DNA from: Nostoc sp. UHCC 0302
GTDB lineage: Bacteria > Cyanobacteriota > Cyanobacteriia > Cyanobacteriales > Nostocaceae
Length of the DNA: 64,000 nucleotides
Direction of reading: 5' to 3'
Assembly: GCF_038096175.1 (NCBI RefSeq)
Contig: NZ_CP151099.1
Location: forward strand, 1,738,501 to 1,802,500
Shown here: positions 1 through 38,834 of the stretch, one piece after another
Layout of the letters: each line of letters begins with the position of its first letter
Position numbering within the stretch: the stretch's first letter is position 1
Notes under the pieces: model-generated
Told to the model about the DNA's origin: nothing
Seen by the model: only the letters and a program-made list of their open reading frames with translations
The model's database searches: none
Position numbers and translations under genes: made by a program

Positions 1-129
1 TTGTTGGAAAATCTCTTTAGGTTCGGCAGTAATAAACACTTGATGACCCCCCAAGCGTTCGATTAGCTTGGCGGTTCCCTTAGCCAGGAGTTGGTTATCT
101 TCAACCAGTAGGATGTTCAAGATTGTCAC
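1..129 (-). CDS. Response regulator, N-terminal part (runs off the window)
   Basis: This is the start of a receiver-domain protein whose remainder lies beyond the window edge. The visible residues read ILLVEDNQLLAKGTAKLIER, the first beta strand and acidic pocket (ED) typical of CheY-like receivers; the phospho-acceptor Asp is not in view. A GTG at 127-129 or an in-frame TTG at 118-120 could be the start; I chose GTG because it is longer and still in frame. The gene overlaps the 3' end of the upstream histidine kinase by about 20-30 bases, which implies translational coupling and makes that kinase its likely partner. Output domain unknown. Confidence 0.8.
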   Translation of the reverse strand, partial: MTILNILLVEDNQLLAKGTAKLIERLGGHQVFITAEPKEIFQQ

Positions 130-2215: not shown

Positions 2216-2250
2216 CTGTGTACTCCTAACTTCTTAGGATAACTATTTTA

Positions 2251-4014
2251 TTATTTAACTAGGCTAGCAATTACCATAGCTAACTGAGCTGGTTCTATTG
2301 GCTTAGTCAAATGTTTTTGGAATCCTGCTTGGAGAATTTTTTGCTGGTTAATCTCTCCAGCATAGGCTGTCAGTGCGATCGCTCGAATTTCTCCTCCTTG
2401 CTCAGGTGGTAGCGATGTCTGACGACAAGCCGCTTCGCGTCTACGAATTTCCCGAATCAGCATATAGCCATCCATTTCTGGCATACCAATATCACTTAAG
2501 AGAATATCTGGCTTATGCAGTGCAAAGGCGTTTAGTGCTTGCGAAGCTGAGGCAGCGGCATACACAGAAGCACCATAGTCTTTGAGGATGAGGGCTATTA
2601 GGTCGCGGGTGTCAACTTCATCGTCCACGACCAGCACCTTTACCCCCTGAAGATTAGGGGATTTTTCAGGCAAATCCTTGTCTTCACATGCTTCAGGCTC
2701 GGCATTCCTGATGGGTAACAACACAGTAAAGGTAGAACCTTTATCATCTCCCTCGCTTTCTGCTTTGACTGTTCCACCGTGCATTTCAACGATTTGACGA
2801 ACGATCGCCAGACCAAGCCCCAAGCCGCCAAAGGTTCTTGTTGTGCTATTGTCAGCTTGCCGGAAGTAATCAAACACGTGAGGCAGAAATTCTGGGTTGA
2901 TGCCCTTACCCGTGTCACTCACCCGGATTTGCGCTTGTGTACCCACGTACTCAAGTCGTATTTCCACTTTACCCCCGGTCTGTGTGAACTTAACGGCGTT
3001 AGACAGTAAATTCCAGACAACTTGCTGCAAGCGGCTGGGATCACCCAGAACTTTCTCGACATTCGGTTCTACTATTGTCTTAAGTTGAATTGACTTTGCT
3101 TGAGCCGCTAAACGCACAGTATCAAGCGCTACTTCAATAACGGCGGACAGATCAACAGAACTGATATTCAGACTGAGCTTGCTTTGAAGAATGCGGGAAA
3201 CATCCAGTAAATCTTCCATCAACTGAGACTGCAACTTGGCATTGCGCTCAATAGTTGCTAAAGCATAAGCCGTCTTTGCTTCATCAAATTTGCGGGTTTG
3301 TAAGAGTTTTGACCAGCCTAAGATCGGGTTGAGGGGGGAACGTAGTTCGTGAGATAGAACAGCGAGGAACTCGTCTTTGAGACGATTGGCAGATTCTGCT
3401 GCTCGTGCTGCTCGCTCGCTGCGTGCAAATTCTTCGGCTGCTTGATTGGCCTTGTTACTGTAGAGGGCAGCTGCTATAAAATTTGCGAGGCTTGTCATCA
3501 GCCGTAAGTCTTCTCCATCAAACCGCCGATGCTCATTGTGAGATACAATCCAAATCGTACCAACTGGTTGATTGGCAATTAATAAAGGAACCACGAGTAT
3601 CTCAACGATTGTTGGCTTAAACTGTTGCAAATAAGTAAAATACCGTTCTGGATAGGAATAGAGCAGTGGGGCTTGAAGTTCTAGGCAGATGCCGCAGCAA
3701 CTAAAGGTGTAAAGAGTGGGAGTTTGTTCATAGGCTTCTAACATCCCGGCTAGTGCGACCCAGCGGCAAATTTCTTCCCCGCTCTGAGTTACTTCAAGTA
3801 AGCTTACACCTGCTGTTTCTGCCCGACATAGTTGAGTAGTTATTGTTACAAGCTTCTTTAGCAGAATTTCAGGCTGCTCAACGAGCTGCTGTACCAGGGC
3901 ATGAAGTGCATTATTCTCTTCTTTGAGGTCAGTGGTTCTGGGTACTCGACGGGACAGCTCTTCAGTAATGAGAATATCGTCTAAACATATCTGCTCCACT
4001 TCCTCATTCGTCAT
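2251..4014 (-). CDS. Hybrid histidine kinase, GAF-HisKA-HATPase-REC
   Basis: A 587-residue hybrid sensor kinase. An N-terminal GAF-like sensor region covers about 35-190 and contains a cysteine cluster (SCCGICLE, near 105-112) that could bind a ligand or metal (inference). A coiled-coil-like linker leads to HisKA with H222 (LSHELRSP), then HATPase (NLLSNAVKFT, DTGKGI, GGLGLGLAI). The C-terminal receiver (about 458-585) has the DDE pocket, phospho-acceptor D508 (LLSDIGMPEMDGY), and the conserved Thr and Lys (ALTAY, LTKP). No transmembrane helix is seen. It is the first gene of a probable three-gene minus-strand unit with the phytochrome-like kinase and the response regulator. The signal is unknown. 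Confidence 0.88.
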   Translation of the reverse strand: MTNEEVEQICLDDILITEELSRRVPRTTDLKEENNALHALVQQLVEQPEILLKKLVTITTQLCRAETAGVSLLEVTQSGEEICRWVALAGMLEAYEQTPTLYTFSCCGICLELQAPLLYSYPERYFTYLQQFKPTIVEILVVPLLIANQPVGTIWIVSHNEHRRFDGEDLRLMTSLANFIAAALYSNKANQAAEEFARSERAARAAESANRLKDEFLAVLSHELRSPLNPILGWSKLLQTRKFDEAKTAYALATIERNAKLQSQLMEDLLDVSRILQSKLSLNISSVDLSAVIEVALDTVRLAAQAKSIQLKTIVEPNVEKVLGDPSRLQQVVWNLLSNAVKFTQTGGKVEIRLEYVGTQAQIRVSDTGKGINPEFLPHVFDYFRQADNSTTRTFGGLGLGLAIVRQIVEMHGGTVKAESEGDDKGSTFTVLLPIRNAEPEACEDKDLPEKSPNLQGVKVLVVDDEVDTRDLIALILKDYGASVYAAASASQALNAFALHKPDILLSDIGMPEMDGYMLIREIRRREAACRQTSLPPEQGGEIRAIALTAYAGEINQQKILQAGFQKHLTKPIEPAQLAMVIASLVK

Positions 4015-4622
4015 TAGACTACTCCGCTTCTAAGAAATATTGCCTCAGCAGCTCCTGTCCAGGTTCACCCAAGTTCCATAATATTTATTCAATCTGCTTC
4101 AGTGCCAATTGCGAAGGTACTTACTCTCAAACAAAGATACCAGCGTCAACACCCAGAACTACTACACACAACAAGCAATTAAGAATAAGGCTGGCATCTT
4201 TTTAAAGCGGTCTCCCCTAATTCTGCAATTTCTAAGCGCTTAGTTTCTAACATTGCCTTTGCTTATTCTGAATATTACAGACCGAAGAATACGACAAATG
4301 GCGTGGCGTTTCTGACTTTCTTAGGGAAGAATTTGAAAGTTAGTTAGACATATATCACTAAATGCCCTCATCTTCATGTTTCTAGATACCTGCCCGACTT
4401 ACGGCATAGCCAGATAGAAGGGGCGTACTTTTGTCTTTGTTTGAGTACAGTTATCTACCCAATTATAACTGTACATCACCTTTGTTTTTCCTGCGCTAGG
4501 GTAGACCGTTTTAAGAAAATTAGTAGGCGAATACTCATTTACAGTTCAGCAGTTACAACTAGTGGTACGCTTTTTTGAACAAGGTTTTTAATTCTTTTCT
4601 CTTTCTCCTTTAACCTTTTCCC
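4015..4622. other. Intergenic region, no gene seen
   Basis: About 600 bases upstream of the hybrid kinase with no convincing open frame. It presumably contains the promoter of the minus-strand signalling operon, but I could not pick a specific site. It ends at the 10-bp direct repeat ACCTTTTCCC (4613-4622) that flanks the interrupted mini-element. Confidence 0.5.
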
Positions 4623-4776
4623 TAATACGTTTCAGTTAAGGGCTACTCGTACAAAATTTTGGGTTTTCGAGACGCGATAAATCGCCGATCTCTACAAGTT
4701 TTTTGGTCTTATACCAATTCTCTGAAATAAGGCTACAGATGAGATAATAAGATGAAACTAGATACAAAGATGAACA

Positions 4777-5846
4777 ATGTCAGGGGTATATCAACTAGAA
4801 ATTAAAGAGACTGTCGCAGAACTCAAAGATTTACTGGCAATACAAAAAACTGCGACGGCTAAAGAAAGAGTGCAGCTACTATATTTACTCAAAACAGGGC
4901 ATGGTCAAACAATTTCTCAAACCGCAGAAATTATTGGTCGAAATCGAGTGACCCTACACAAGTGGATTCGACAGTACAAAGCAGGCGGTATTGAAGGACT
5001 ATTAAAACAAAAATCTTCGCCAGGAAGACCAAGAACCATCCCAAACTGGGCAGAAAAAGCATTAGAGAAAAGATTGCAAGAACCACTTGGATTTAATGGT
5101 TATCAAGAAATTGTAGAGTGGCTAGAACAAAACTTGGGAGTCAATTCTTGCTACAAGACAGTTCACAAACTGGTTTATTACCGTTTGGAGTCATCGCCAA
5201 AAGTACCACGCCCCAAAAGCGTTGAACAAAAACAACCACAAGTAGAGGCATTTAAAAAAACCTTGCACACAACTTAGCAATGCTGTCTTGGTTTTGCTTA
5301 ACAGTTTTATGCACAACGAAAACGATTCGTTTTTGGTGCGAGGACGAAACTCGAATTGGATTGAAAACAATCACAGGACGGAAAATCACAGGCAAGGGTG
5401 TCAAACCCGTTGGTGTACACCAGTGGCAGTTCAAAGCAACATATTTATATGGAATCATCGAACCACTGACTGGCGAAAGCTTTTTTTGGGAATTTTCACA
5501 TCTTAATACTGACTGTTTTCAGATATTCCTCAATCTAATTTCTCAACATTTTACTGATTCAGTACTAATTATTCAACTGGATAATGGTGCCTTTCATAAA
5601 GCCAAACGTCTTCAAGTACCAGATAACATCATTTTATTATTTCAGCCTGCACATTCTCCCGAGTTAAACCCAATTGAGCAGGTTTGGCAATATATTAAGC
5701 GCCGACTGCGTTGGTTATTACCTAAAAAACTTGATGATTTACGTACTGCTCTCTACGCTGAAATTGGGAAATTAACCAAACAAATTATTGTATCTATTGC
5801 CCGAAGACAATATATTTTAGAGGCACTATCTGTAGCTAGCTTTTAG
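4777..5846 (+). CDS. IS630-family transposase, made by -1 frameshift
   Basis: Two overlapping frames form one transposase. The first (4777-5277) carries N-terminal helix-turn-helix domains (NRVTLHKWIRQYKAGG) and stops after FKKTLHTT. A -1 slip on the A7 run at 5254-5260 instead gives FKKNLAHNLAML and continues into the catalytic frame to 5846. The DDE residues are visible: D in CEDETRIGLKT, D in IQLDNGAFHKA, and E in SPELNPIEQVWQYIKRR. No other defect is seen, so the element may be active. IS630 elements are known to use programmed frameshifting; its use here is inferred from the slippery run and the in-frame match across it. Confidence 0.88.
5254..5260 (+). promoter_or_regulatory. Predicted -1 ribosomal frameshift site (A7)
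   Basis: TTT followed by seven A residues and CC. Reading back one base after the two Lys codons restores the transposase frame. The damaged IS630 copy has the same TTTAAAAAAAC context at the matching position (near 28128), so the site is conserved between elements. Confidence 0.75.
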
Positions 5847-6022
5847 AGAATTGGTATTATCTGAACCGTATTGACCTTTTCCCAACCTCCACCCGGCATT
5901 CTTAGTTTGGCAGACTACTAGTAAAAGATTCTGCTCTAGTTTTTCCCGATTATCTGGTTTTTTGGCTCAACCTAAGCCTGTAATGCATTTGAGAAATTAT
6001 GAACTACGAATTACTATAAACT

Positions 6023-9000
6023 TCACCACTGCGGATTCGCCGCCATTAATAACGTTGCAGCTGAGCTATCGAGTGGGGTAGAGAAAAAATATCCTTGCCC
6101 ATATTCACAGTTCAACTTTCTCATCAGTGCTAATTGCTCTTTTGTCTCTACTCCTTCGGTGGTTACATCAACATTTAATTTGTGTGCCAACGTGACAATT
6201 ATTTCAACAATTTCTAAATTTCTGCTATCAGCATCCATTGGGCTAACGAAGGAGCGGTCAATCTTTAACACACTAATTGGAAACCGATAAAGACGACCTA
6301 ATGAAGAGTAGCCCGTCCCAAAGTCATCAATTGATAACTCAATGCCCAAGTCTCGAAGTTGTGAAAGTTGAGCAATGGCTTCATCACCGTTTTCTACAAT
6401 TGCGCTTTCAGTAATCTCTAGTACTAGGCTGCCAGCATCAAGACCAGTCGAGTGCAAAATTTCTTCAATCTGCTTAATCAAATCAGACTGAGAGAATTGT
6501 TTGACAGAGAGATTAACGCTGATTTTATTTGGTGAGTTGGTAGGATGGCTCACTCGCCAAGCTTGCATCTGGCGGCACGCCTCATGTAACACCCAGTAAC
6601 CAATCTCGACAATCAGTCCAGTTTCTTCGGCGATGGGAATAAAATCTGCCGGAGAAACTAGACCTCGCTCTGGATGCTGCCAGCGCAGCAGAGCTTCAAA
6701 ACTTGAGATTCTACCATTAGTGAGCGAAACAATCGGTTGGTAATAAACCCGGAACTCTTGACGTTCAATTGCTCGGCGTAAATCAGTCTCTAATTGCAAT
6801 CTATCGAGAGCATCAACATACATCTCTGGGTTGAATAGTTCATAACGCGCTCTGCCCAAGGCTTTGGCTCGGTACATCGCTGCGTCAGCATCTCTTAACA
6901 AGTTTTCTGGTTGGTCGTAGTCTACTGTCGAACTTAAAGCAATACCAATACTTGCTGTTGTGAACACTTCTTGTCCATCCAGTTCAAAAGGTAATGCCAG
7001 TTGTTGTTGAATCCGCTCAACCACTTTAATGGCATCTGCTACATTCTGGATTCCCTCAAGCAAGATTGTAAATTCGTCTCCACCAAACCGGGCGACTATA
7101 TCCATAGAGCGAATGCATACTCGTACTCTATCTGCAATAGTCAATAGAAATTTGTCTCCCATTAAGTGTCCAAGACTGTCATTGATTACCTTAAACCGAT
7201 CCAGGTCGAGAAAAAGTACAGCAAATAAATAATTTTCCTGCCGTTTGGCTTGCTCAAGCGCGTGTTTTAAGCGCTCCATAAATAAAGCGCGGTTTGGTAG
7301 ACCTGTAAGTGCATCATAAAATGCATTTTGCAGCAATTGTTCTTCTGCTCGTTTACGCTCAGTAATATCTCGATTAACCTCTAAAATTCCTTTTACTTGA
7401 CCTTCTGCATCTTGCATTAACACCTGACGACTTTCGACAATAATTTGGCTCCCATCTCGTCGCGTGTGAGTTAGTTCACCTTCCCAATGTCCTTGCTGAC
7501 GCAGGATATCATCAAGGTTCAAACAGCTTGGTGTAAATTGAGTCTGCAATAGGGAATGAGGAATCTTGCCGATCGCTTCTGCACTCGTCCAACCATACAG
7601 TTCTTCGGCGCTATGATTCCAATAAGCGATCGCATTGTTGGCATCGCGGACAAAGATGGCTTCATAAACTAGGTCTAACAACTGGGCTTGCTCTTGGAGG
7701 GTGTACTCAACTTGCTTGCGTTTGGTGATATCGGAACGAATTGCAATGTACTGATATGGTTTGCCTGCGGCATCCAAAAAAGGCACTATGGTAGTCGCCA
7801 CCCAGTAAAATGTATTGTCTTTGGCACGATTTTTGATTTCTCCTTGCCAAACCTGCCCCGTTGAAATCGTAGCCCACATCTGCTGAAAGAAGGCTTTCGA
7901 GTGATAGCCGGAATTAATTATTCGATGGTTCTGTCCAATCAATTCTTCTCTAGAATACTTAGAAAGTTCGCAGAATTTATCGTTGACGTAAGTAATGATT
8001 CCTTTGCCATCTGTAATCGCAACAATTGAGGAATGATCGAGTGCAAACTTCATCTCTGCTAACTCTTTCAGGGATTGTTGTAATGCTGCTTCTGCCTGCT
8101 TGCGTTGTTGAACATCGCGAGCAACAGTTGCTAGGTTGATTGGTTTTCCTGTTTTTGGCTCACGGGTAACAAAAATTGTTTGCAGAACGGGAATCAATTC
8201 GCCAGTTTGGAAATGGCGGAAAATAGTTTCACCTTCCCACCGCCCTTGCTCTAAAACAATTGGCAAAACTTCTTGTTTTACATAGTTCCAAGATTCTGGC
8301 TCGTAGTAATCTGCAAACTGAGTTTGCTGCACTGCCATAGCTTCTAAACCAACTATTTCCTGTGCCGCACAGTTAATAATCATAGTTTGACCATCAAGCG
8401 TGTAAAAACCAACGAAGTGCGGGCTGTTTTCCACAATTGACGCGAGTCGTTGCTGTTGCAGTTGGGCTTGTCTAAGTTCGGTGATATCGGTCGATATCCC
8501 TCCTATGCCATAAAGCGCTTGATTTGCATCATACAAGGGAAACTTGATCGAGAGGTAAGTACGTAACTCATTAGAAAGCAAAACAGTTTCTTCAAAATTC
8601 AACGCCTCCCCGCTTGTTATTACCAAGAGATCATTTTCCCGATAAGTCGCTGCCTGTTCTTCTGGAAAAAGCTCAAAGTCGCGCTTGCCAATAATCTGCT
8701 CTCGCTGCATCCCAAACAACATCTCGAATTGCCGATTTACCAGTAGAAGTTGACCTTCTAAAGTTTTGAGATAAATGACTGTTGGGGCATTGTCAGCAAC
8801 TGCCCGGAGTTTATCTTCACTTTCTCGCAAAGCTGCTTCTACTCGCCTTCGCTCTTCAATTTGTTGCTCTAAAACTTGATTTGCTTGAAATAACTCTGCT
8901 GTGCGTTGCTCTACTTTTACTTCTAGTTCAGCATAAGCAACTCTCAATGCTTCTTCTGCTTGTTGACGCTGGATATCTACTCCATAAAGCCGTTTGGCAC

Positions 9001-9826
9001 AGTACCAAATTAAACCCATGAAGGCAATTACATTACCAATCACGTGCAGGGACAATCCAAAGGCAGTATCAAACAACCCCAGTTGTTCCCCTAGCACCCG
9101 GAGCCATCCTAAGCCAAAGGGAATGGCGATCGCCGCAGGTAGTAACACTCTGGCTGTGGTTCCACCAGCGCTATTGCTGACTACTAGGCTCATCCAGCCC
9201 TCAGAGGGAGCTATAAACAACGTGCCAAGCGAGAGTACAATAAACGTAATAGCTGTATGAATAGCTGAGTGCGTCAAATGTGCCAGCCCAAATAGTGCTT
9301 TGGCTCCATAAATGTAGCTCATCAAAACCTGTAGGGAAGTCAGTGTGGTGAGCAGTGCCAATAGCTGAACTAGCTGATAACGTAACCTGGCGGAAGTTGA
9401 AAGCCATAAAGCAAAGCCAATCAAGACAAAGTTGAATGCTGATATAGGTGACATTCGCCCAGGGGTGGAAATCGCTGAGTTATCGAAAAATAGCAGTTGA
9501 TCAATTCCCAAATTCCAGCCAAATGTGTATTCACTGATTGTCAGTAAGCCCAAGATGGTTACTGCTAAAGCAAACCCCTGAGCTAATCTACGTTTGAGTT
9601 TTGCTGTTGACTTGAGAAAATTTAATGTCAGACCAGATAGCACAAAGCCTAAAGCAGTATTAGGTTTCATAGCTATCCACTCTGGTAATATACTTTTTAA
9701 AGTTTGATTATCAACTAACCAGCCAACCAGTACGGCGCAGCCAACCAGAGCTACAAACATACCTGCAATTTGTGAAGTTGCTTTTAGCACTGTAAGAAGA
9801 CGGCGATCTGATTGAACAACAGTCAT
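6023..9826 (-). CDS. Membrane-anchored PAS-GGDEF-EAL protein (c-di-GMP turnover)
   Basis: A 1267-residue protein predicted to make and break cyclic di-GMP. The N-terminal ~280 residues contain about eight hydrophobic segments, an integral membrane sensor of MASE type. A coiled coil follows, then four PAS/PAC domains. The GGDEF domain near residue 914 has an intact FGGDEF loop and a product-inhibition I-site, RSMD, five residues before it. The EAL domain (about 1020-1260) keeps FEALLRW, NLSVKQF, DDFGTGYSS, KIDRSFV and EGVET, so both activities look intact; which one dominates cannot be told. It stands alone, about 230 bp from its upstream neighbour. Confidence 0.92.
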   Translation of the reverse strand: MTVVQSDRRLLTVLKATSQIAGMFVALVGCAVLVGWLVDNQTLKSILPEWIAMKPNTALGFVLSGLTLNFLKSTAKLKRRLAQGFALAVTILGLLTISEYTFGWNLGIDQLLFFDNSAISTPGRMSPISAFNFVLIGFALWLSTSARLRYQLVQLLALLTTLTSLQVLMSYIYGAKALFGLAHLTHSAIHTAITFIVLSLGTLFIAPSEGWMSLVVSNSAGGTTARVLLPAAIAIPFGLGWLRVLGEQLGLFDTAFGLSLHVIGNVIAFMGLIWYCAKRLYGVDIQRQQAEEALRVAYAELEVKVEQRTAELFQANQVLEQQIEERRRVEAALRESEDKLRAVADNAPTVIYLKTLEGQLLLVNRQFEMLFGMQREQIIGKRDFELFPEEQAATYRENDLLVITSGEALNFEETVLLSNELRTYLSIKFPLYDANQALYGIGGISTDITELRQAQLQQQRLASIVENSPHFVGFYTLDGQTMIINCAAQEIVGLEAMAVQQTQFADYYEPESWNYVKQEVLPIVLEQGRWEGETIFRHFQTGELIPVLQTIFVTREPKTGKPINLATVARDVQQRKQAEAALQQSLKELAEMKFALDHSSIVAITDGKGIITYVNDKFCELSKYSREELIGQNHRIINSGYHSKAFFQQMWATISTGQVWQGEIKNRAKDNTFYWVATTIVPFLDAAGKPYQYIAIRSDITKRKQVEYTLQEQAQLLDLVYEAIFVRDANNAIAYWNHSAEELYGWTSAEAIGKIPHSLLQTQFTPSCLNLDDILRQQGHWEGELTHTRRDGSQIIVESRQVLMQDAEGQVKGILEVNRDITERKRAEEQLLQNAFYDALTGLPNRALFMERLKHALEQAKRQENYLFAVLFLDLDRFKVINDSLGHLMGDKFLLTIADRVRVCIRSMDIVARFGGDEFTILLEGIQNVADAIKVVERIQQQLALPFELDGQEVFTTASIGIALSSTVDYDQPENLLRDADAAMYRAKALGRARYELFNPEMYVDALDRLQLETDLRRAIERQEFRVYYQPIVSLTNGRISSFEALLRWQHPERGLVSPADFIPIAEETGLIVEIGYWVLHEACRQMQAWRVSHPTNSPNKISVNLSVKQFSQSDLIKQIEEILHSTGLDAGSLVLEITESAIVENGDEAIAQLSQLRDLGIELSIDDFGTGYSSLGRLYRFPISVLKIDRSFVSPMDADSRNLEIVEIIVTLAHKLNVDVTTEGVETKEQLALMRKLNCEYGQGYFFSTPLDSSAATLLMAANPQW

Positions 9827-10057
9827 AAATATTACTAGCTATTTATGTAAATTTATAACAGCCAGGAGACTGTTAAAGTCATACTTCTCTGGGTAGATAA
9901 GGCTCTTACGTGGTCAATCGTAAATATTACAACTATAGCTAGTAGTAAATAAAGTTACTCTCTTTAAGTAAGGGCGCACAGATGTGCGCCCCTACTGTAT
10001 TCATCTGTGGCTAATTATTTCTTTACTGTAGATAAGCAGTAACCGCTATAATAAGTA

Positions 10058-12325
10058 CTATTGAGAATTGACTGATTCTGCAATAAGTTTTAAATCGTGT
10101 AAAACTGCGGCGGCTGATTGATAGCGATCGCTAAAATGATAACAAACCATCTTATCTAAAATTGCCGCTAACTCTTCACTAACTTGCGCCATTTCACGCC
10201 ATATTACATTACCCGTTTCTGGGTTTGGCTGGAGTTCTTGCGGTGGGATTCCAGTTATTGCTTGAATACCAATAATTCCTAAAGCATAAATATCACTACA
10301 CAAGCGGGGATGTCCCGCAAATTGCTCTGGTGGCGTGTAACCCCGCGTCCCGATCGCCACTGTGGCTAATTCTGTTTTTTCACTCGGCGGTTGCATCAAT
10401 TTGACTGCACCAAAGTCAATTAACACTAAGCGATTGTCTAGAGCGCGTCTTATAATATTAGCTGGCTTGATATCTCGATGAATTACACGATGCTGGTGAA
10501 CAAACACCAAAACTTCTAAAACTCCTTTGAGCATATTTATTACAAAGGATTCGTTTTGTAAGTTCATTACAGGTGGTAATTCCTCGGTTAAAGTATGTCC
10601 TTGAATGTATTCTTCAACTAAATAAAATTCTTGCTCATCTTCAAAATATGCTAGCAGTGCCGGAATTTGATCATGTTTACCCAAGGTTTCTAAAATCTCG
10701 GCTTCAGTATTAAATAATCTGCGAGCAACTTGTAAAAATTTGCTATCTTGGCGGGCTGGCATTAATTGTTTAACTACACAAATAGGATTACCTGGCCGCT
10801 GAGTATCTGTTGCCAAATAAACGCGACCGAATCCACCTGTACCGAGGATTTGGGAAATTTTGTAGCGTCTGCTTAAAAGGAAGTCACCAACTCTTTTTTC
10901 TGGTGTATCAATTGTAGGAACTAGGTCAAGTTCTGAGTCGGAAATTGCTGTTTTGTCTTGTAAAAGGATATTTAATTGCGCGATCGCTTCTTGTTGCTTT
11001 TCAACTTGCAGAATAATTACCCTAGTTTGCTGCTGGGTTTGGTAGCTAGTGTAAGCCATAACACCAACACCACTAATTACCAACGCCAGGGCTGGCGGAA
11101 TGATTGGTATCCATCCAGCTAAGAAAAATAAACCAATGCAGATTCCTCCCAAGCCAATTAAAGTTATGCCTCCTAGAGTTAGCAATAGTAAAGGATGTTG
11201 CCACCGCCATACTAAAAGACTGCCGATTAGTGACCAACCCCATATCCAAATAAGTTCAGCCCAGTCTGGCCAGTACCAAATTAGCCGCCGTCTATCTAAG
11301 ACTGTACTGATAATTTGACTTGCTATCTCTGCATGAATGATCATTGCAGACATTCTTGCTGGTTGGTCTGGTAAAGTGCTGTAAGGTGTGTAGAAGCTGC
11401 CTGGAGAAAGACTAGCCGCTGTACTGCCTATAATTACAAGATGGTCTTTAACTAAATTGGGGTTAATGCGATCGCTAAGAACATCCAAAAGGCTGACTTC
11501 TTGAGCAAGGTGAGCTGGATGACGGTAATTTAACAGCATTTGATAGCCAGCCGCATCCAGATGTTTATAGCTACCAGAATTAGCTTCTAGGCGTGGAAAG
11601 AGAATTTTACCTACCTGAAAGTTTCCTTCTTGAGTAAAGTTGTATTTAATACCTTGCTTTGCTAAATAATTAATCGCAATTAACGAGCCAAAAGAAAATC
11701 CTGTTGTACATTTCTTGTCTGGAGAGTTAGCAAATAACAAACTGCGGCGGAGAATTTGATCACTTTCATTATCAGTAACTATATCGCTAAAGCCGACATT
11801 ATCAATAGGAAAATTATGTGGTGGTGGAATTTCATCTCTACCTATGCTACTGAATAAGCAAGTGCTAATGATGTTATTTCGATTTTGAAGGTTAGCCGCT
11901 AAGTTTTTCTGCCCTGGTCGGAAAAGATATAAACCAATAACACGAGGTTGATACGAATTTAGTTTTTCTAATAGCTGATTAATTGTGCGGTCTGACAGAT
12001 TCCCTTGCTCTCGTTGCAGATCCTCTTCAGTTATTTTTACCAGTAAAATCCGCTGATCAGGCGTTTCTGGGGGACGCGATCGCAACATCTCGTCATAAAC
12101 TCTTAACTCCCAAGGCTGCAACCATTTGAGTTCCCGAACTCCCCAGATCAAGGCGGTGACTCCCACACTAGTAACCACAATAATTTGCACCCACTGATTG
12201 CTGGGAGAAGTTTCACGAGAACTCTTATCTTTAACGAACGCGGCACGGAGTTTTTCTAATAGTTCACTAATCACAGCGTTGCAGCAGGAGGCAGAGGGAA
12301 AACTTGCTTTCTCAGAAGATTTCAA
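10058..12325 (-). CDS. CHASE2-domain serine/threonine protein kinase
   Basis: A 755-residue membrane kinase. After one N-terminal hydrophobic segment comes an extracytoplasmic CHASE2 sensor (about 85-340; WELRVYDEMLRSRPPETPD). Two or three membrane helices follow (about 350-420), then a short coiled coil and a C-terminal eukaryotic-type kinase. Kinase motifs are intact: GTGGFGRVYLATD (P-loop), VVKQL (Lys), VIHRDIKPANII (catalytic Asp), LIDFGAVK (DFG) and GTRGYTPPEQ. The CHASE2-transmembrane-kinase order is a common cyanobacterial arrangement. The ligand and substrate are unknown. It diverges from the catalase-like gene, with about 135 bp between them. Confidence 0.92.
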   Translation of the reverse strand: MKSSEKASFPSASCCNAVISELLEKLRAAFVKDKSSRETSPSNQWVQIIVVTSVGVTALIWGVRELKWLQPWELRVYDEMLRSRPPETPDQRILLVKITEEDLQREQGNLSDRTINQLLEKLNSYQPRVIGLYLFRPGQKNLAANLQNRNNIISTCLFSSIGRDEIPPPHNFPIDNVGFSDIVTDNESDQILRRSLLFANSPDKKCTTGFSFGSLIAINYLAKQGIKYNFTQEGNFQVGKILFPRLEANSGSYKHLDAAGYQMLLNYRHPAHLAQEVSLLDVLSDRINPNLVKDHLVIIGSTAASLSPGSFYTPYSTLPDQPARMSAMIIHAEIASQIISTVLDRRRLIWYWPDWAELIWIWGWSLIGSLLVWRWQHPLLLLTLGGITLIGLGGICIGLFFLAGWIPIIPPALALVISGVGVMAYTSYQTQQQTRVIILQVEKQQEAIAQLNILLQDKTAISDSELDLVPTIDTPEKRVGDFLLSRRYKISQILGTGGFGRVYLATDTQRPGNPICVVKQLMPARQDSKFLQVARRLFNTEAEILETLGKHDQIPALLAYFEDEQEFYLVEEYIQGHTLTEELPPVMNLQNESFVINMLKGVLEVLVFVHQHRVIHRDIKPANIIRRALDNRLVLIDFGAVKLMQPPSEKTELATVAIGTRGYTPPEQFAGHPRLCSDIYALGIIGIQAITGIPPQELQPNPETGNVIWREMAQVSEELAAILDKMVCYHFSDRYQSAAAVLHDLKLIAESVNSQ

Positions 12326-33591: not shown

Positions 33592-34056
33592 GTGATCAAA
33601 ATTTTAGTTGATGCTGATTTAATATTAGAAGCTCTGATGAATCGTAACGAATGTGTAGAAGATGTTAGAGAATTATTAGATAGAGTTAATCCATCGATTC
33701 AAATCCATTTAACAGATGTAGGATGGCAAAAAATTTATGCTTACGCCAGCCGTTTACGGAATAATAAGATTGCTGAGATTGTCGTCAGTTGGTTACAAGT
33801 GAAAATTCAGATTTGTTCTGTAGACCAAAGTATTTTACAGCAAGCACGTTCATCACCATTAAAAGATTTTGAATCTGCTGTAGAACTAGTATGTGTCAAT
33901 TATCAAAAACTTGATGCAATTGTCACCCATAAATATGAAGATTTTGCCAAAGCTCCCAACAAGTGTTGGGTTTGGTCAGTAGCTGAGTTATGGGTGCGTG
34001 CAAACCTAGAAAATCAGCTACAAGCAACAATATCTAGTACACAACGGCGAAAATAA
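33592..34056 (+). CDS. PIN-domain-like protein
   Basis: 154 residues from a GTG with a strong upstream AAAGGAGG. PIN-fold features: an N-terminal hydrophobic strand ending in Asp (KILVDADLILEAL), a middle acidic motif (LKDFESAVELVC) and a late Asp (LDAIVTHKYEDF), in the order of the metal-binding acids of PIN ribonucleases. No antitoxin-like small gene precedes it, so a classic toxin-antitoxin pair is not supported. In Nostocales such single PIN-like domains also occur at the start of larger signalling proteins. Endonuclease activity is inferred. Confidence 0.65.
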   Translation: MIKILVDADLILEALMNRNECVEDVRELLDRVNPSIQIHLTDVGWQKIYAYASRLRNNKIAEIVVSWLQVKIQICSVDQSILQQARSSPLKDFESAVELVCVNYQKLDAIVTHKYEDFAKAPNKCWVWSVAELWVRANLENQLQATISSTQRRK

Positions 34057-34128: not shown

Positions 34129-34650
34129 TTAATTATTTTGAATCGGCTGTTGTAAGCGCTGTAAACGAATAGTTGCTTCATCAATTTGTTTCTGTAGTAA
34201 AGTCAGATTTGCCTCCATTGTTTTCTTTTGGGTTTCGAGCAATTCTGTTTCCTTACGCAGACGAGTCATTCTTATGTTATGATCCTCTGTTCGTCCGGGT
34301 TGATAAATGATACCGACGTAAATCGTGAGATTCGCAGTATCTAATGTATTTACCCCGGCAGAAAGATTAAAGCCAAAGTCATTTTCAGTATTGACAAAAG
34401 CATTAGGAACGTTATTTAAAGGGAAAATATTGGGGTAGTTAATCGTGTTATTGTTATTAACAGGTACTTGGGGGCTAGACTGCAATATTTGATTAAAGCT
34501 GGCGTCATTGCCGACATTACTTGTTTGATTGCTAGTTGCTGACTGAGGATAAGCAGGAGCGATCGCTAAAATTTCTAGGATGCAGATAACGGAAAAAATA
34601 GGTATAACATTTAACAATTTTTGAGCAATTACCAAGAGCAAAGCTTTCAT
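34129..34650 (-). CDS. Exported Asn/Gln-rich protein with C-terminal coiled coil
   Basis: About 173 residues from the ATG at 34650; a TTG at 34665 is in frame. A signal peptide or anchor covers residues 1-36, with likely cleavage near APAYPQS. The mature N-terminal part is Asn/Gln-rich (SNQTSNVGNDASFNQIL; VNNNNTINYPN). It is followed by a short beta-like segment (LTIYVGIIYQPG) and a coiled coil (about 125-170; TELLETQKKTMEANLTLLQK). It is last in a row of five exported proteins on the same strand, spacing about 380 bp to the next. Function unknown. Confidence 0.68.
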   Translation of the reverse strand: MKALLLVIAQKLLNVIPIFSVICILEILAIAPAYPQSATSNQTSNVGNDASFNQILQSSPQVPVNNNNTINYPNIFPLNNVPNAFVNTENDFGFNLSAGVNTLDTANLTIYVGIIYQPGRTEDHNIRMTRLRKETELLETQKKTMEANLTLLQKQIDEATIRLQRLQQPIQNN

Positions 34651-35028
34651 AATCTTTTCTGGCAAAACTTCAATCCAAGCTTGCTAAATAGTTTACCTTA
34701 TAGCGCTCTAAGTAAGTAAAATTATTGACCGCAGATGTTTGATTGTTCTAAAAATTAACAAATTGTCAGAAGTTGCTTATGCTACTACTCTGTCAATGAA
34801 AAATTGAGAAGTATATACTGTCTGTAACTTTAGCGAAGACAGCGCAACTACGAACTTATCCAATCAAACTTGACACAATACTACTACAGTAAGTCCAGTG
34901 TAAATCGAGGTAAGAGCAGGTATGATAAAATAGCGGTTTTTGAACTTCATCTACCTGCTGATAGCCGAGAAAAACCAAAAACTATTAAATAGAAAAAAAT
35001 CTATTAGTGCGACAGCTTGTGAAGATAT

Positions 35029-35418
35029 TTATCTGCGAGGGAGAAAATTTGGATCGTAAGCTGGACTCTCTATATTCACTTGTACTCCTACTGGAATTTT
35101 AATAGTTGGAATTTTCACTCCAGTTGGATTGTTACCTCCAACAACATATTGATTACTATTTCGGGTTTGTTGCACTGAGCCTGAACCAGTATAAACTTGA
35201 GTTCCTGTAGTAGTAACAGCATTACCAAAGCAATCATCAGCAGCTTGCTGATTAACATTATTACTTTGGTTAGCAGTACTATTGCGGCCATGAATTGCCA
35301 CCTGCACACCCACATCAGCTAAGACACAGGCTGCCTTTGCAGAAGGCGTAAACGCAGGTATAAACGATGATACGCTTGCTAAAGTAAATAAACTTAGGGG
35401 AAGTAATTTGAGATTCAT
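35029..35418 (-). CDS. Exported Asn/Gln-rich protein with paired Cys
   Basis: 129 residues with a clear signal peptide (about 1-29, ending SAKAA). The mature part starts with Cys (CVLADVGVQVAIHGRN), has a second Cys (ADDCFGN) after a NQSNNVNQQ tract, then TGTQVYTGSGSVQQTRN, and ends Pro-rich (GVKIPTIKIPVGVQV). The Q/N spacing loosely resembles the repeats of the upstream proteins but is less regular. Part of the exported-protein row. Function unknown. Confidence 0.7.
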   Translation of the reverse strand: MNLKLLPLSLFTLASVSSFIPAFTPSAKAACVLADVGVQVAIHGRNSTANQSNNVNQQAADDCFGNAVTTTGTQVYTGSGSVQQTRNSNQYVVGGNNPTGVKIPTIKIPVGVQVNIESPAYDPNFLPRR

Positions 35419-35508
35419 TATTATCTCCTAATAAAGATTGTGATAATGGTCAAAGTAATTCGTAACTTTTACTCTATAACTGTTCACACCATCTCACTAT
35501 GAAATGAG

Positions 35509-35543
35509 GAATTACGAGTTACGAATTACGAATTACGAATTAC
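35509..35543. repeat. Heptamer tandem repeat (ACGAATT type)
   Basis: About five units of the 7-bp motif ATTACGA, with one variant unit, lie between two exported-protein genes. Such short tandemly repeated heptamers are common in heterocystous cyanobacteria. Confidence 0.85.
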
Positions 35544-35551
35544 TTAGTTCG

Positions 35552-35914
35552 CTATTGGCACGTAGTTACAGTTGTAGAATTGGAAGCGTAGTTGATAGCC
35601 CTACCATAGCGATCGCTGTAAGTTTGATTCCGGGTATACTCCCTCTGCCTACACAAGAGAACTGGTGTTCTTCTTGATGATTTCAAAATCCGAAAACGCT
35701 GATTTTTGTAAATAGGTACTACTGATGTGGTCTGGCGTTGGGGAAGAATAGTTGTTCCAGTTGTAGCTGAATTAATTATAATTCCACCATCACGATCAAC
35801 TATTACCCTAGCGTTTTCAGTTTGAATATCAATATCACCTGCTCTAACTATATCCGCAGGTAATATCATCAGTGCAGGCAGGGCAAGTAGTGAAATGCAT
35901 TGTTTGGTGAGCAT
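35552..35914 (-). CDS. Exported protein, unknown function
   Basis: 120 residues with a signal peptide (about 1-25, ending DIVRAGD). The mature part begins DIDIQTENARVIVDRDGGII, an alternating beta-strand pattern. It has two Cys (VLLCRQRE and the C-terminal TTCQ) that could pair. It lacks the Q-x5-G repeat of its upstream neighbours but shares the strand, the export signal and the C-terminal Cys. Spacing is about 90 bp to the next gene upstream, so it may be co-transcribed. Confidence 0.68.
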   Translation of the reverse strand: MLTKQCISLLALPALMILPADIVRAGDIDIQTENARVIVDRDGGIIINSATTGTTILPQRQTTSVVPIYKNQRFRILKSSRRTPVLLCRQREYTRNQTYSDRYGRAINYASNSTTVTTCQ

Positions 35915-36001
35915 AACTTTATCACCATACTAATAGTAAAATAACCGATTTTTTAGCTTTGCTAGCTAGGAAATCGGTAAAACCTATAGAGTTAATTGTT
36001 G

Positions 36002-36352
36002 TTAGCGACAAAAGCGATTCCTGGCAGCATTAATTTGACGCTGGATATTTTCTTGGCTGGCATTTTGTGCCACGGTATTACCAGAACCAATTGCGATCGC
36101 TTCTTGGTTTAAAATCTGATTATTCGCTTGAATTTGGTTACCAGGGTTGCAAAATGAGCTATTTCCTCGCTGATTTTGGCTTTGGTTGCTAAACTGAGAG
36201 CCTTGTTGACCAACAACATTATTGTTGCCGTAAACAGTAGCACTTTGATTTAGAATCTGCTGACCACCTTGATTTTGTTCAGCAAAGGCAGCGGTTGGCG
36301 CTATGATCAAAGCTGCTGCTAAAAAACCGAAAGTAGAGGTTTTCTTGAGCAT
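36002..36352 (-). CDS. Exported Q/N-rich two-repeat protein (curlin-like)
   Basis: 116 residues with a signal peptide (1-24, ending AAFAE). The mature protein is two repeats. Repeat 1 is ILNQSATVYGNNNVVGQQ, repeat 2 is ILNQEAIAIGSGNTVAQN, and both fit Q-x5-G-x2-N-x3-Q. One Cys lies between them (SSFCNPGNQIQ) and one near the end (RFCR). The pattern resembles the amyloid-forming curlin repeat but with different spacing. Paralogs are at 36480-36827 and 37048-37395. Surface fibre or adhesion function is inferred. Confidence 0.75.
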   Translation of the reverse strand: MLKKTSTFGFLAAALIIAPTAAFAEQNQGGQQILNQSATVYGNNNVVGQQGSQFSNQSQNQRGNSSFCNPGNQIQANNQILNQEAIAIGSGNTVAQNASQENIQRQINAARNRFCR

Positions 36353-36479
36353 ATTTATCTTTTTGAATTTAATTAAGTGATAATTAGTAGTTTCCTGGTT
36401 ATTAAGGGTTGGCGCTGCTCAAATTTTCAAAGGTTTAGCAACGCCTAGAGCCTCATTTAACCAATTAGTAACTTGAAAT

Positions 36480-36827
36480 TTAGCGGCACAAGTAACCTTG
36501 AGCTTTAGCAATTTGTCTCTGGTAAGTATCTGTAGAAGCAGTTTGACCTGTGACGTTAGATATTCCAGCAAGAGCAATAGCTTGATCCGCATTGGCACTG
36601 GAGGCTTGAATTTGGTTGCCAGAGTTGCAGAAAGGATTACTCTTATTAATTTGTTGTTGGGCAGTTCTGGTGCTGGAAGATTGAGCAGCAACATTGTTAT
36701 TACCAGAAGTCACAGAAGTTTGAGTAGTGTTGCTAGAACTACCTTGAACTTGATCTGCAAATGCGGCAGCAGGTGAAACCGCCAAAGCAGCGGCTAACAG
36801 TCCAAAAACATGAGCTTTTTTCAACAT
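36480..36827 (-). CDS. Exported Q/N-rich two-repeat protein (curlin-like), copy 2
   Basis: 115 residues, signal peptide 1-24 ending AAFAD. Repeat 1 is TTQTSVTSGNNNVAAQSS, repeat 2 is ADQAIALAGISNVTGQTA; both fit Q-x5-G-x2-N-x3-Q, with a trailing T-x-T-x-Q-x-Q in common. Cys residues are placed as in the neighbours (NPFCNSGNQIQ; GYLCR). It is nearly identical to the 37048-37395 protein over the signal peptide and C-terminus, so the pair is a recent tandem duplication. An IS630-type mini-element lies in the gap upstream of it. Confidence 0.78.
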   Translation of the reverse strand: MLKKAHVFGLLAAALAVSPAAAFADQVQGSSSNTTQTSVTSGNNNVAAQSSSTRTAQQQINKSNPFCNSGNQIQASSANADQAIALAGISNVTGQTASTDTYQRQIAKAQGYLCR

Positions 36828-36885
36828 GGTGTAGACCTTGTTTAATGGTATGTGTGGAACTTGGTTAAAAATTGGTCAAAAGGTA

Positions 36886-36986
36886 ATACCAATTCTCTAA
36901 ATGAAAGCAACATATCGTTTGTAGTAGCGCTTCAGCGCAATTACAAGTCTGATTTAATCTGTCGTCATATTTTAGAGAAACGGTAT
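36886..36986. repeat. IS630-derived mini-element (about 101 bp)
   Basis: The left end ATACCAATTCTCT (36886-36898) is identical to the IS630 terminal repeat at 4711-4723. The right end AGAGAAACGGTAT (36974-36986) is its inverse with two mismatches. The interior is non-coding. A parent IS630 transposase could in principle move it. It lies between the two duplicated exported-protein genes. Confidence 0.75.
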
Positions 36987-37047
36987 AAATACCTTTGAAT
37001 ATTAAAAAGTCAAACTAGAATCCAAAGATTTAAATCTGCACTGGGGT

Positions 37048-37395
37048 TTATCGGCACAAATAGCCTTGAGCTTTAGCAATTTGTCTCTGGTAAGTATCTG
37101 TTGAGGCAGTTTGACCAGTGACATTGTACAGACCAGCAAGCGCACTGGCTTGAGCCGCACTAGCATTGGAGGCTTGGATTTGGTTGCCAGAGCTGCAGAA
37201 AGGACTACCCTTCTGACTTTGCTGTTGAGCTGTTCTGGTGTTGGCAGATTGAGCTGTAACGTTATTGATACCAGAAGTCACAGAAGTTTGAGTAGTGTTA
37301 CTAGAACTACCTTGAACTTGATCTGCCAAAGCAGCGGCAGGTGCAACTGCCAAAGCAGCGGCTAACAGCCCAAACACATGAGCTTTTCTCAACAT
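37048..37395 (-). CDS. Exported Q/N-rich two-repeat protein (curlin-like), copy 3
   Basis: 115 residues, signal peptide 1-24 ending AALAD. Repeat 1 is TTQTSVTSGINNVTAQSA, repeat 2 is AAQASALAGLYNVTGQTA; both fit Q-x5-G-x2-N-x3-Q. Cys residues are in SPFCSSGNQIQ and GYLCR. It is the first gene of the minus-strand row. The divergent XRE regulator begins about 320 bp upstream. Because the gaps between the five genes are 90-380 bp, each may have its own promoter. Confidence 0.78.
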   Translation of the reverse strand: MLRKAHVFGLLAAALAVAPAAALADQVQGSSSNTTQTSVTSGINNVTAQSANTRTAQQQSQKGSPFCSSGNQIQASNASAAQASALAGLYNVTGQTASTDTYQRQIAKAQGYLCR

Positions 37396-37712: not shown

Positions 37713-38051
37713 GTGAAACAAAAGCCAAAACCAAGGATTGCTTTGCTTCGAGAAAAGGCAGGGTTAACCCAGCTTGAGTTGTCACGTCTTGTAGGCGTGA
37801 CTGAAAGCACTATCCAAAACTGGGAAAGCGGCAGGACTGGCACAGATCATATTGAAAGAATCATTAGGTTTTGCAAAGCCCTGAATTGCCCAGTAGAAGA
37901 ACTAATTGAGTATGCGAGTGATTCATCAGAAGAACCAGCTGCAAAACCGAGTTCATTAAGTGAGATACATACTCTATTAGGGACTGATGATCTGCCTAAA
38001 ACACCTAGCTTGCAACCTGAAGTCACTCAACAGCAACAGGCTAGGAGTTAG
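37713..38051 (+). CDS. XRE-family helix-turn-helix regulator
   Basis: 112 residues from a GTG; no good ribosome-binding site is visible. The N-terminal 65 residues are a Cro/CI-type HTH (IALLREKAGLTQLELSRLVG, then VTESTIQNWESGRTG). The C-terminal half is acidic, then Pro/Gln-rich and unstructured, with no sensor domain. It is divergent from the exported-protein row, so it is a candidate regulator of that row (context only). Confidence 0.85.
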   Translation: MKQKPKPRIALLREKAGLTQLELSRLVGVTESTIQNWESGRTGTDHIERIIRFCKALNCPVEELIEYASDSSEEPAAKPSSLSEIHTLLGTDDLPKTPSLQPEVTQQQQARS

Positions 38052-38156: not shown

Positions 38157-38834
38157 TTATTTGGTTTGAGATTGCTGCCATAAGGTATCAACAGTAACAA
38201 ACTCGTAACCTTGTTGTAGCAATTGCGGAATGAGGATTTTGATTGTGGCAGCAACATCTTGCCCGCCGCAGACACCATCATGTAAGACAATTAGTGAGCC
38301 GTTTTGCACTTGGTTGATAACTCGCTGTGCCACAGTAGCAACTCCCGGACGCACCCAATCTTCTGGTACGACACTCCACATTACTGGTCGGTAATACCAC
38401 TGAGAGAAGAGTTTTAAGATAGCGGGTGTAAAGAAACCATTGGGGGGACGGACATCGCGCACTTGTTGAGGTTGCAGGTTGCAAGCGCTATGAATAGCAA
38501 CTTGGGTTTTTTCTAAACTTTCTTTGAGGTCATTGGGGGAAAGCATGGGAAAAGAGCGATGATCATAGCCATGCAATCCGATCCAGTGTCCGCGATCGCT
38601 AACTGCTTTGGCGATTCCAGGTGAACGGTTAACGCAAACACCCAACCAAAAAAAATTAGCTGTGATTTTGTAACGGTCTAAAACAGTCAATACTTCTGGT
38701 GTGTATTGGGGATGGGGGCCATCATCAAACGTCAGTGCGATCGCTTTGGAATTGCGATCACCACTCCAAAGACAGTTGGGAAAAGTCGGTTGAAGAAAGC
38801 GATATAAAATCGGGTAAAGAGGAGCAAACTGCAT
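38157..38834 (-). CDS. Polysaccharide deacetylase (NodB homology domain)
   Basis: A 225-residue carbohydrate esterase 4 protein that removes N-acetyl groups from a glycan, probably peptidoglycan or exopolysaccharide. Motif 1 TFDDGPHP (catalytic and metal Asp), motif 2 HGYDHRS (metal His pair), motif 3 RPPNGF (usually RPPYG; Asn replaces Tyr), and motif 5 IVLHDG are present in order. No clear cleavable signal peptide; the N-terminus is mildly hydrophobic. Monocistronic. Confidence 0.9.
   Translation of the reverse strand: MQFAPLYPILYRFLQPTFPNCLWSGDRNSKAIALTFDDGPHPQYTPEVLTVLDRYKITANFFWLGVCVNRSPGIAKAVSDRGHWIGLHGYDHRSFPMLSPNDLKESLEKTQVAIHSACNLQPQQVRDVRPPNGFFTPAILKLFSQWYYRPVMWSVVPEDWVRPGVATVAQRVINQVQNGSLIVLHDGVCGGQDVAATIKILIPQLLQQGYEFVTVDTLWQQSQTK

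Follow-up and report, generated by a model that had tools for sequence, protein, structure and literature searches.

What is the function of a row of small, glutamine-rich, exported-looking proteins encoded side by side in a cyanobacterium? The question is raised by a locus in a 64,000-nucleotide stretch of the Nostoc sp. UHCC 0302 genome (contig NZ_CP151099.1, positions 1,738,501 to 1,802,500; hereafter the window, in whose coordinates positions are given), where six genes on the minus strand lie beside a divergently oriented gene on the plus strand. We found that this locus is one instance of a conserved gene cluster, A(n)-C-D-[F]-[E], which in some loci is accompanied by a divergent Xre-type gene. 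The cluster is real and conserved, and it has no family name in the libraries searched. We propose, with a confidence just short of even, that its repeat proteins would be exported structural subunits with stacked beta-arches and glutamine ladders, polymerising into a curli-like fibre or matrix. The features of the locus are as follows (aa, amino acids).

37713..38051, plus strand: divergent Xre/HTH_3 gene, candidate regulator (Pfam HTH_3, E-value (E) 1.6e-12)
37048..37395, minus strand: A1, first gene of the tandem array, exported, 115 aa, two repeats
37219..37320, minus strand: A1 repeat unit 1 (QxQ...GxxN...QxQ), coordinates by hand from mature positions 2-35
37081..37182, minus strand: A1 repeat unit 2, coordinates by hand
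36480..36827, minus strand: A2, two-repeat exported protein, 115 aa
36651..36752, minus strand: A2 repeat unit 1, coordinates by hand
36513..36614, minus strand: A2 repeat unit 2, coordinates by hand
36002..36352, minus strand: B, 116 aa, a more divergent repeat protein that closes the array
36176..36277, minus strand: B repeat unit 1, coordinates by hand
36035..36136, minus strand: B repeat unit 2, coordinates by hand
35552..35914, minus strand: C, exported-looking, 120 aa, mature part starting GDIDIQ, two cysteines
35029..35418, minus strand: D, the anchor gene, exported-looking two-repeat protein of 129 aa, cysteines at mature positions 2 and 34
34129..34665, minus strand: E, exported-looking, 178 aa from TTG or 173 aa from the ATG at 34650

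The initial annotation of the window had described three tandem exported proteins with six Q-x5-G-x2-N-x3-Q repeats, and both this count and all six minus-strand open reading frames (ORFs) were recovered. A1, A2, and B each hold exactly two matches (residue 36, then residue 82 or 83); among the listed window ORFs of at least 45 aa such pairs are confined to these three proteins. At least two matches arose in shuffled mature sequences at frequencies of only 0.00165 (B), 0.00005 (A2), and 0.0001 (A1) in 20,000 trials each. The motif is real but is only part of a longer repeat with the consensus Q-x-Q-x3-Q-x3-Q-x5-G-x2-N-x3-Q-x3-Q-x3-Q-x-Q, whose second unit follows about 46–47 aa further on. The row had been described as one of five exported proteins; it has six members, because C looks exported as well and belongs to the conserved cluster. 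Signal peptides were recognized by eye in A1, A2, and B (basic, hydrophobic, AxA), with similar starts in C, D, and E; a signal-peptide script was unspecific, flagging 354 of 783 background ORFs, and was not used. A1 and A2 are 84% identical, with a ratio of nonsynonymous to synonymous substitution rates (dN/dS) of 0.18, and the nearest relative on a named contig, from Calothrix, has 47% identity.

To describe the family, 201 ORFs labeled as A were collected, of which 193 passed filters for E and length; once identical sequences were removed, the profile aligned 170 stretches, and the alignment used has 156 rows (154 proteins), each with more than 75% coverage. At least two Q-x5-G-x2-N-x3-Q matches occurred in 60 of these 154 relatives (14/85 in the host family, 46/69 in other families; shuffle fraction 0.0). 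A cysteine after each repeat, which had been reported for A1, A2, and B, is present in all three; two cysteines were found in 96 of the 154 relatives, but 47 have none in the part counted.

The initial annotation had correctly placed C, D, and E on the strand of the repeat genes, but missed that these three are, with the divergent regulator, members of a single conserved cluster. In maps of 24 loci, the usual order was divergent Xre gene, the copies of A, C (of the 35552 type), D, F, E, and the window represents this arrangement without F. Matches to A2 were found in 13 of 60 genomes (host included), all of the host family and most with several copies, while D matched in 17 of the 60, including all 13 with an A match. 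E matched in 12 of the 60 at E 0.001; seven of these matches were strong, six of them at the cluster and one elsewhere. A D profile matched 94 of 388 genomes of the host order, in 47 of 150 genera, and 21 of 386 genomes across the phylum, two of the 21 lying outside the host order.

We counted the neighbors of D in 100 loci, comprising 85 fetched with D (5 plus 80 of the 129 places counted in the order-wide D match list), the window, L031, and 13 fetched with A; several genomes contributed more than one locus, and four of 104 loci without D were excluded. Labels for A and C came from profiles at E 0.01, extended once over the same loci. The E profile was not iterated; an iterated version pulled in the A family, and labels from it were discarded. 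A-type genes lay upstream of D, on the same strand and within 5 kb, in 89/100 loci (74/85 D-fetched, 15/15 A-fetched). C was upstream of D in 65/100 (51/85, 14/15), and downstream of D were F in 50/100 (38/85, 12/15) and E in 14/100 (10/85, 4/15). The Xre gene was within 5 kb and divergent in 15/100 loci (6/85, 9/15), and it accompanied 14 of 24 D loci of the host family, L031 included. Some of the 100 loci departed from the order: C followed D in 1 and an A-type gene did so in 19, and F was on the opposite strand in 1. A scan for promoters and terminators returned fewer sites than the shuffle mean (8 vs 10.5; 1 vs 3.6).

The number of upstream A copies was 0 in 11 of the 100 D loci, 1 in 55, 2 in 15, and 3–7 in 19, and by eye a B-type protein is often the last array member in other loci. 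Tandem paralogs in variable copy number would also fit small exported proteins that diffuse and serve in recognition or competition among strains, with tandem duplication as the source of their diversity. We regard this as very unlikely: dN/dS of neighboring copies was mostly below 0.5 (0.12–0.50, except for a near-identical pair at 1.21 and four undefined), no immunity-like partner was recognized, and the cluster is shared with the conserved C, D, and F. A mobile origin was rejected as well, as D and B had no matches in the plasmid collection and D had none in the phage collection (E 1e-3), and B had no relatives in viral contigs.

The partner proteins have conserved features of their own. 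Both cysteines of C are invariant across 13 aligned members, and the D cysteines at mature positions 2 and 34 are kept in 0.99 and 1.0 of 102 rows. E, analyzed in its 173-aa form, consists of an N-terminal Q/N segment and a C-terminal coiled-coil-like helix. F proteins are exported-looking (for example, L042:6658-7146, L072:6027-6467, and L078:6514-6948, among others); the window has none, and a search of the host genome, run without a positive control, also gave no match. One of four F members scanned matched the immunoglobulin (Ig) domain family Big_7 at 9.9e-05, just under the curated cut-off.

Evidence for our proposal also comes from the repeat itself. Around G18 and N21, mature positions 2, 4, 8, 12 and 25, 29, 33, 35 often hold glutamine, and the pattern recurs 47 positions on. 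Across the 156 rows, the glutamine frequencies mirror each other about i + j = 37, with r of 0.93 and 0.96 in the two repeats; the next-best mirror sums, 4 away, reached r of 0.73 and 0.71 because of the 4-residue spacing of the glutamines. Laid out as two strands, these positions occupy one face, which is 32–34% Q and 2–3% charged, compared to 3–5% Q and 16–20% charged on the other face, with S/T equally common on both. In 29 rows from 9 loci, position 12 is I or V, and 29 pairs at positions 12/25 are I/I or I/V.

Covariation, measured over the same 156 rows as mutual information with background correction, followed the same symmetry. In the pooled set, the leading antidiagonal was i + j = 37 in both repeats (mean z of 0.96 and 0.91; next sum 0.33 and 0.19), and between repeats an offset of 0 scored 3.47, with other offsets at 0.55 or below. 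The i + j = 37 signal was carried by pairs on the Q face (2.40 and 2.00, vs −0.41 and −0.23 for other pairs), and permuting partners within the face gave p of 0.0012 and 0.0004. For a hairpin in one sheet, coupling on both faces would be expected; for an arch, mainly on the inner face. When each locus was represented by a single protein (three draws of 83 rows, p ≤ 0.0035), 37 was still the leading sum, as it was after removal of the I12 rows, in which Q12 is lost (p of 0.008 and 0.02). Weaker peaks of the same form appeared in D (102 rows), at sums 34 and 100 and offsets 33 and 35.

A stacked beta-arch that could polymerise fits the mirrored, one-faced glutamines and their covariation. We suggest that the cluster makes Sec-exported structural proteins in which each A/B repeat would form a beta-arch, with a strand of ~16 residues, a G-x2-N turn, and another strand of ~16, carrying the glutamines at 2, 4, 8, 12 and 25, 29, 33, 35 on the putative core-facing side. 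In-register stacking of the two repeats would give glutamine ladders. A subunit, being open at its ends, could stack on its neighbor, building a fibre or matrix outside the cell that functions like curli, with longer rungs and without kinship in sequence. The major subunit would come from the tandem A genes; minor, capping, nucleating, or anchoring roles may fall to B, D, C, and E, F is presumably another partner, and the divergent Xre gene, where present, may control the operon.

Several observations weigh against this proposal. Of the D-fetched loci, 11/85 have no upstream A, and no profile relationship between D and A was detected. When only the 71 rows from other families were used, i + j = 37 was not the top sum (0.11 in repeat 1 and outside the best four in repeat 2), and sum 33 led instead with 0.42 and 0.43, while the face contrast and the offset of 0 persisted; in the host family alone, sums 37 and 39 of repeat 2 were nearly tied (0.84 and 0.81). 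The offset-0 signal may come partly from shared descent of the repeats, because the two repeats of a protein are 0.48 identical to each other, vs 0.25 with those of other loci, although the nearest relative of a first repeat from another locus was again a first repeat in 145 of 156 cases. The covariation peaks were read without a curlin positive control. AlphaFold2, in response to an earlier suggestion that a beta-solenoid be looked for, gave no confident fold for A2 (predicted local distance difference test, pLDDT, of 44.9) or D (pLDDT of 32.6), from alignments of only 7 and 2 rows, respectively. V/I/L are rarer on the putative core (Q) face than on the other (0.12 vs 0.19–0.20), a distribution unlike that of a usual hydrophobic core.

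The lack of V/I/L enrichment on the putative core face also suits a different explanation, in which the proteins are two-repeat domains that do not polymerise and act as soluble periplasmic or secreted binders of polysaccharide, peptidoglycan, or surfaces, many of them stabilized by disulfides. The presence of just two repeats per protein, the two cysteines in many A relatives, and the cysteine pairs in C and D agree with it, as does the occurrence of a polysaccharide deacetylase gene and an MltA-type gene among the neighbors in several loci. The cysteine-free A relatives speak against it, no catalytic or ligand-binding family was matched, and arrays of up to 7 copies with a very Q-rich face are better suited to a bulk subunit. 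We consider soluble binders unlikely, though the most credible of the alternatives.

Among the neighbors mentioned, the polysaccharide deacetylase gene lies beside the Xre gene in the window (38157-38834) and has relatives in 10 of the 24 mapped loci. A PIN-domain gene (33592-34056) faces the cluster; its relatives occur in 12 of the 24 mapped loci, where most of them adjoin an MltA/3D-domain gene.

The proposed fibre resembles curli in several respects, and working like curli is plausible for the cluster. Both have exported repeat subunits and a G-x2-N turn, in both glutamines are proposed to face inward, and in the proposed arch, as in that of curli, residues would face each other at constant i + j. 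In both, several paralogs are clustered with a regulator and further genes for small exported proteins (csgBAC/csgDEFG in curli). Inward Gln/Asn ladders and stacked arches are described for curli, together with a curlin unit of 23 ± 5 aa, 4–62 repeats per protein, and long degenerate repeats (PMC10192328). By contrast, the A/B unit of about 46–47 aa is about twice the length of curlin's and occurs twice, compared to 4–62 times in that account (PMC10192328), and its glutamines are mirrored, whereas curlin has N-x-psi-x-psi-x-Q motifs a and b.

By sequence, the cluster is not a curli system. The distinction from curlin drawn in the initial annotation was borne out: Curlin_rpt (Pfam PF07012) matched none of 28 A/B members at E ≤ 10 and nothing in the host genome, with E. 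coli CsgA and CsgB detected as controls at 1.4e-27 and 1.3e-24, and it was found in 0 of 386 sampled genomes of the phylum, again with the E. coli control detected. Alignment with hhalign to E. coli CsgA and CsgB, as single sequences and not as a deep profile, gave probabilities of 0.1 and 0.0 percent, and F, compared with E. coli CsgC on account of its Ig-likeness (one weak Big_7 match among four members), reached 0.4 percent, which is no match. Curli membership was rejected on the Curlin_rpt and CsgA/CsgB comparisons. The statement that the window has no CsgG or CsgF gene extends to the whole host genome (PF03783 and PF10614 absent; controls detected, that for CsgF from E. coli). The missing CsgG, CsgF, and Curlin_rpt in this genome set the cluster apart from curli, as does the lack of a detected sequence relation.

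CsgG-family proteins occurred in 14 of 60 relatives, though the phylum sample of 386 genomes has no curlin repeat. They were not associated with the cluster (2/17 D carriers vs 12/43 others), and with PF03783 absent from the host genome, CsgG-based export was rejected.

The same data bear on whether the proteins might be a diverged true curli, with insertions in curlin repeats and export through a CsgG homolog. The shared turn and Gln-ladder idea, the long degenerate repeats on record for curlin (PMC10192328), and the CsgG-family proteins in relatives would be consistent with such an origin. In its favor, too, the minimal curlin motif Q-x-G-x2-N was present twice in 14 of 154 A relatives, compared to two or more in 1.1% of shuffles; it was present once in 17 and absent from 123. 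The motif is missing from A1, A2, and B of the window, however, and the failure of Curlin_rpt in members and phylum, the failed hhalign comparisons with single CsgA and CsgB, the distribution of CsgG, and the absence of CsgG and CsgF from the host make a diverged curli highly improbable.

No pore gene was recognized in the cluster, which weighs against a fibre outside the cell and agrees with the parts forming a filament in the periplasm or a scaffold of the envelope and staying within the cell. The Sec-exported look of the parts, the coiled-coil-like tail of E, and the one F member with a Big_7 match just below the cut-off are also consistent with a scaffold. Nothing places the proteins in the periplasm, however, and a pore could be encoded outside the cluster; we consider a periplasmic scaffold improbable, though less so than diverged curli or diffusible proteins.

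The initial annotation had proposed a secreted, perhaps amyloid or adhesive, fibre system unlike curli. The repeat family is real and distinct from curlin; a fibre is inferred from the face pattern and the covariation. In its full form, our proposal would be an undescribed cyanobacterial fibre system of two-rung beta-arch subunits with mirrored Gln ladders, tandem genes, its own partners C/D/F/E and regulator, and export without the curli pore, a combination we put at somewhat below even likelihood.

Two other amyloid-related systems offer partial parallels and were set apart by description only. EbfG1–4 of Synechococcus elongatus are, like the proteins described here, small cyanobacterial proteins from one operon; they are described as biofilm matrix proteins, with the amyloid evidence strongest for EbfG2, and the matrix role is that of EbfG (PMC9981879). 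Their hotspot, given there as A-Phi-N-I-Pi, differs from the two-copy Q repeat. HET-s likewise has two repeats per chain, and the beta-solenoid amyloid fold is that of HET-s (PMC4518210); it differs in its 21-aa motif and its part in fungal cell-death signaling.

Family searches gave A, C, and D no named family in Pfam or NCBIfam. Scans of 28 A/B, 20 D, and 13 C members returned single-member matches only, the best at E 0.0037 (Pfam; NCBIfam), with C and E compared to NCBIfam for the window proteins only; the window's D had one NCBIfam match, at E 0.0025, far under the cut-off. A search of solved structures by sequence with B, A2, and A3 found nothing relevant, and in the literature we recognized no description of the cluster, although one under a strain's locus tag could be missed.

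Our analysis offers a testable role for genes without a family that are carried, as judged by D, by 94/388 sampled genomes of the order. If the proteins do build fibres, the cluster would give a large group of cyanobacteria, in a phylum whose sample has no curlin (0/386), a proteinaceous matrix system whose genes are open to deletion. Structural biologists and material engineers would also gain a beta-arch design with a Gln core and rungs longer than those of curli.

Some further observations concern the surroundings of the cluster. By eye, longer proteins adjacent to D in two loci (L077:7506-9902 and L081:5390-6499) have similar Q...G-D/N-x-N...Q stretches, and the former additionally has a 5'-nucleotidase C-terminal domain and DUF4114. 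Elsewhere in the window (101-12325) are signaling genes encoding a GAF/PHY histidine kinase, a hybrid kinase, a PAS-GGDEF-EAL protein, and a CHASE2 Ser/Thr kinase.

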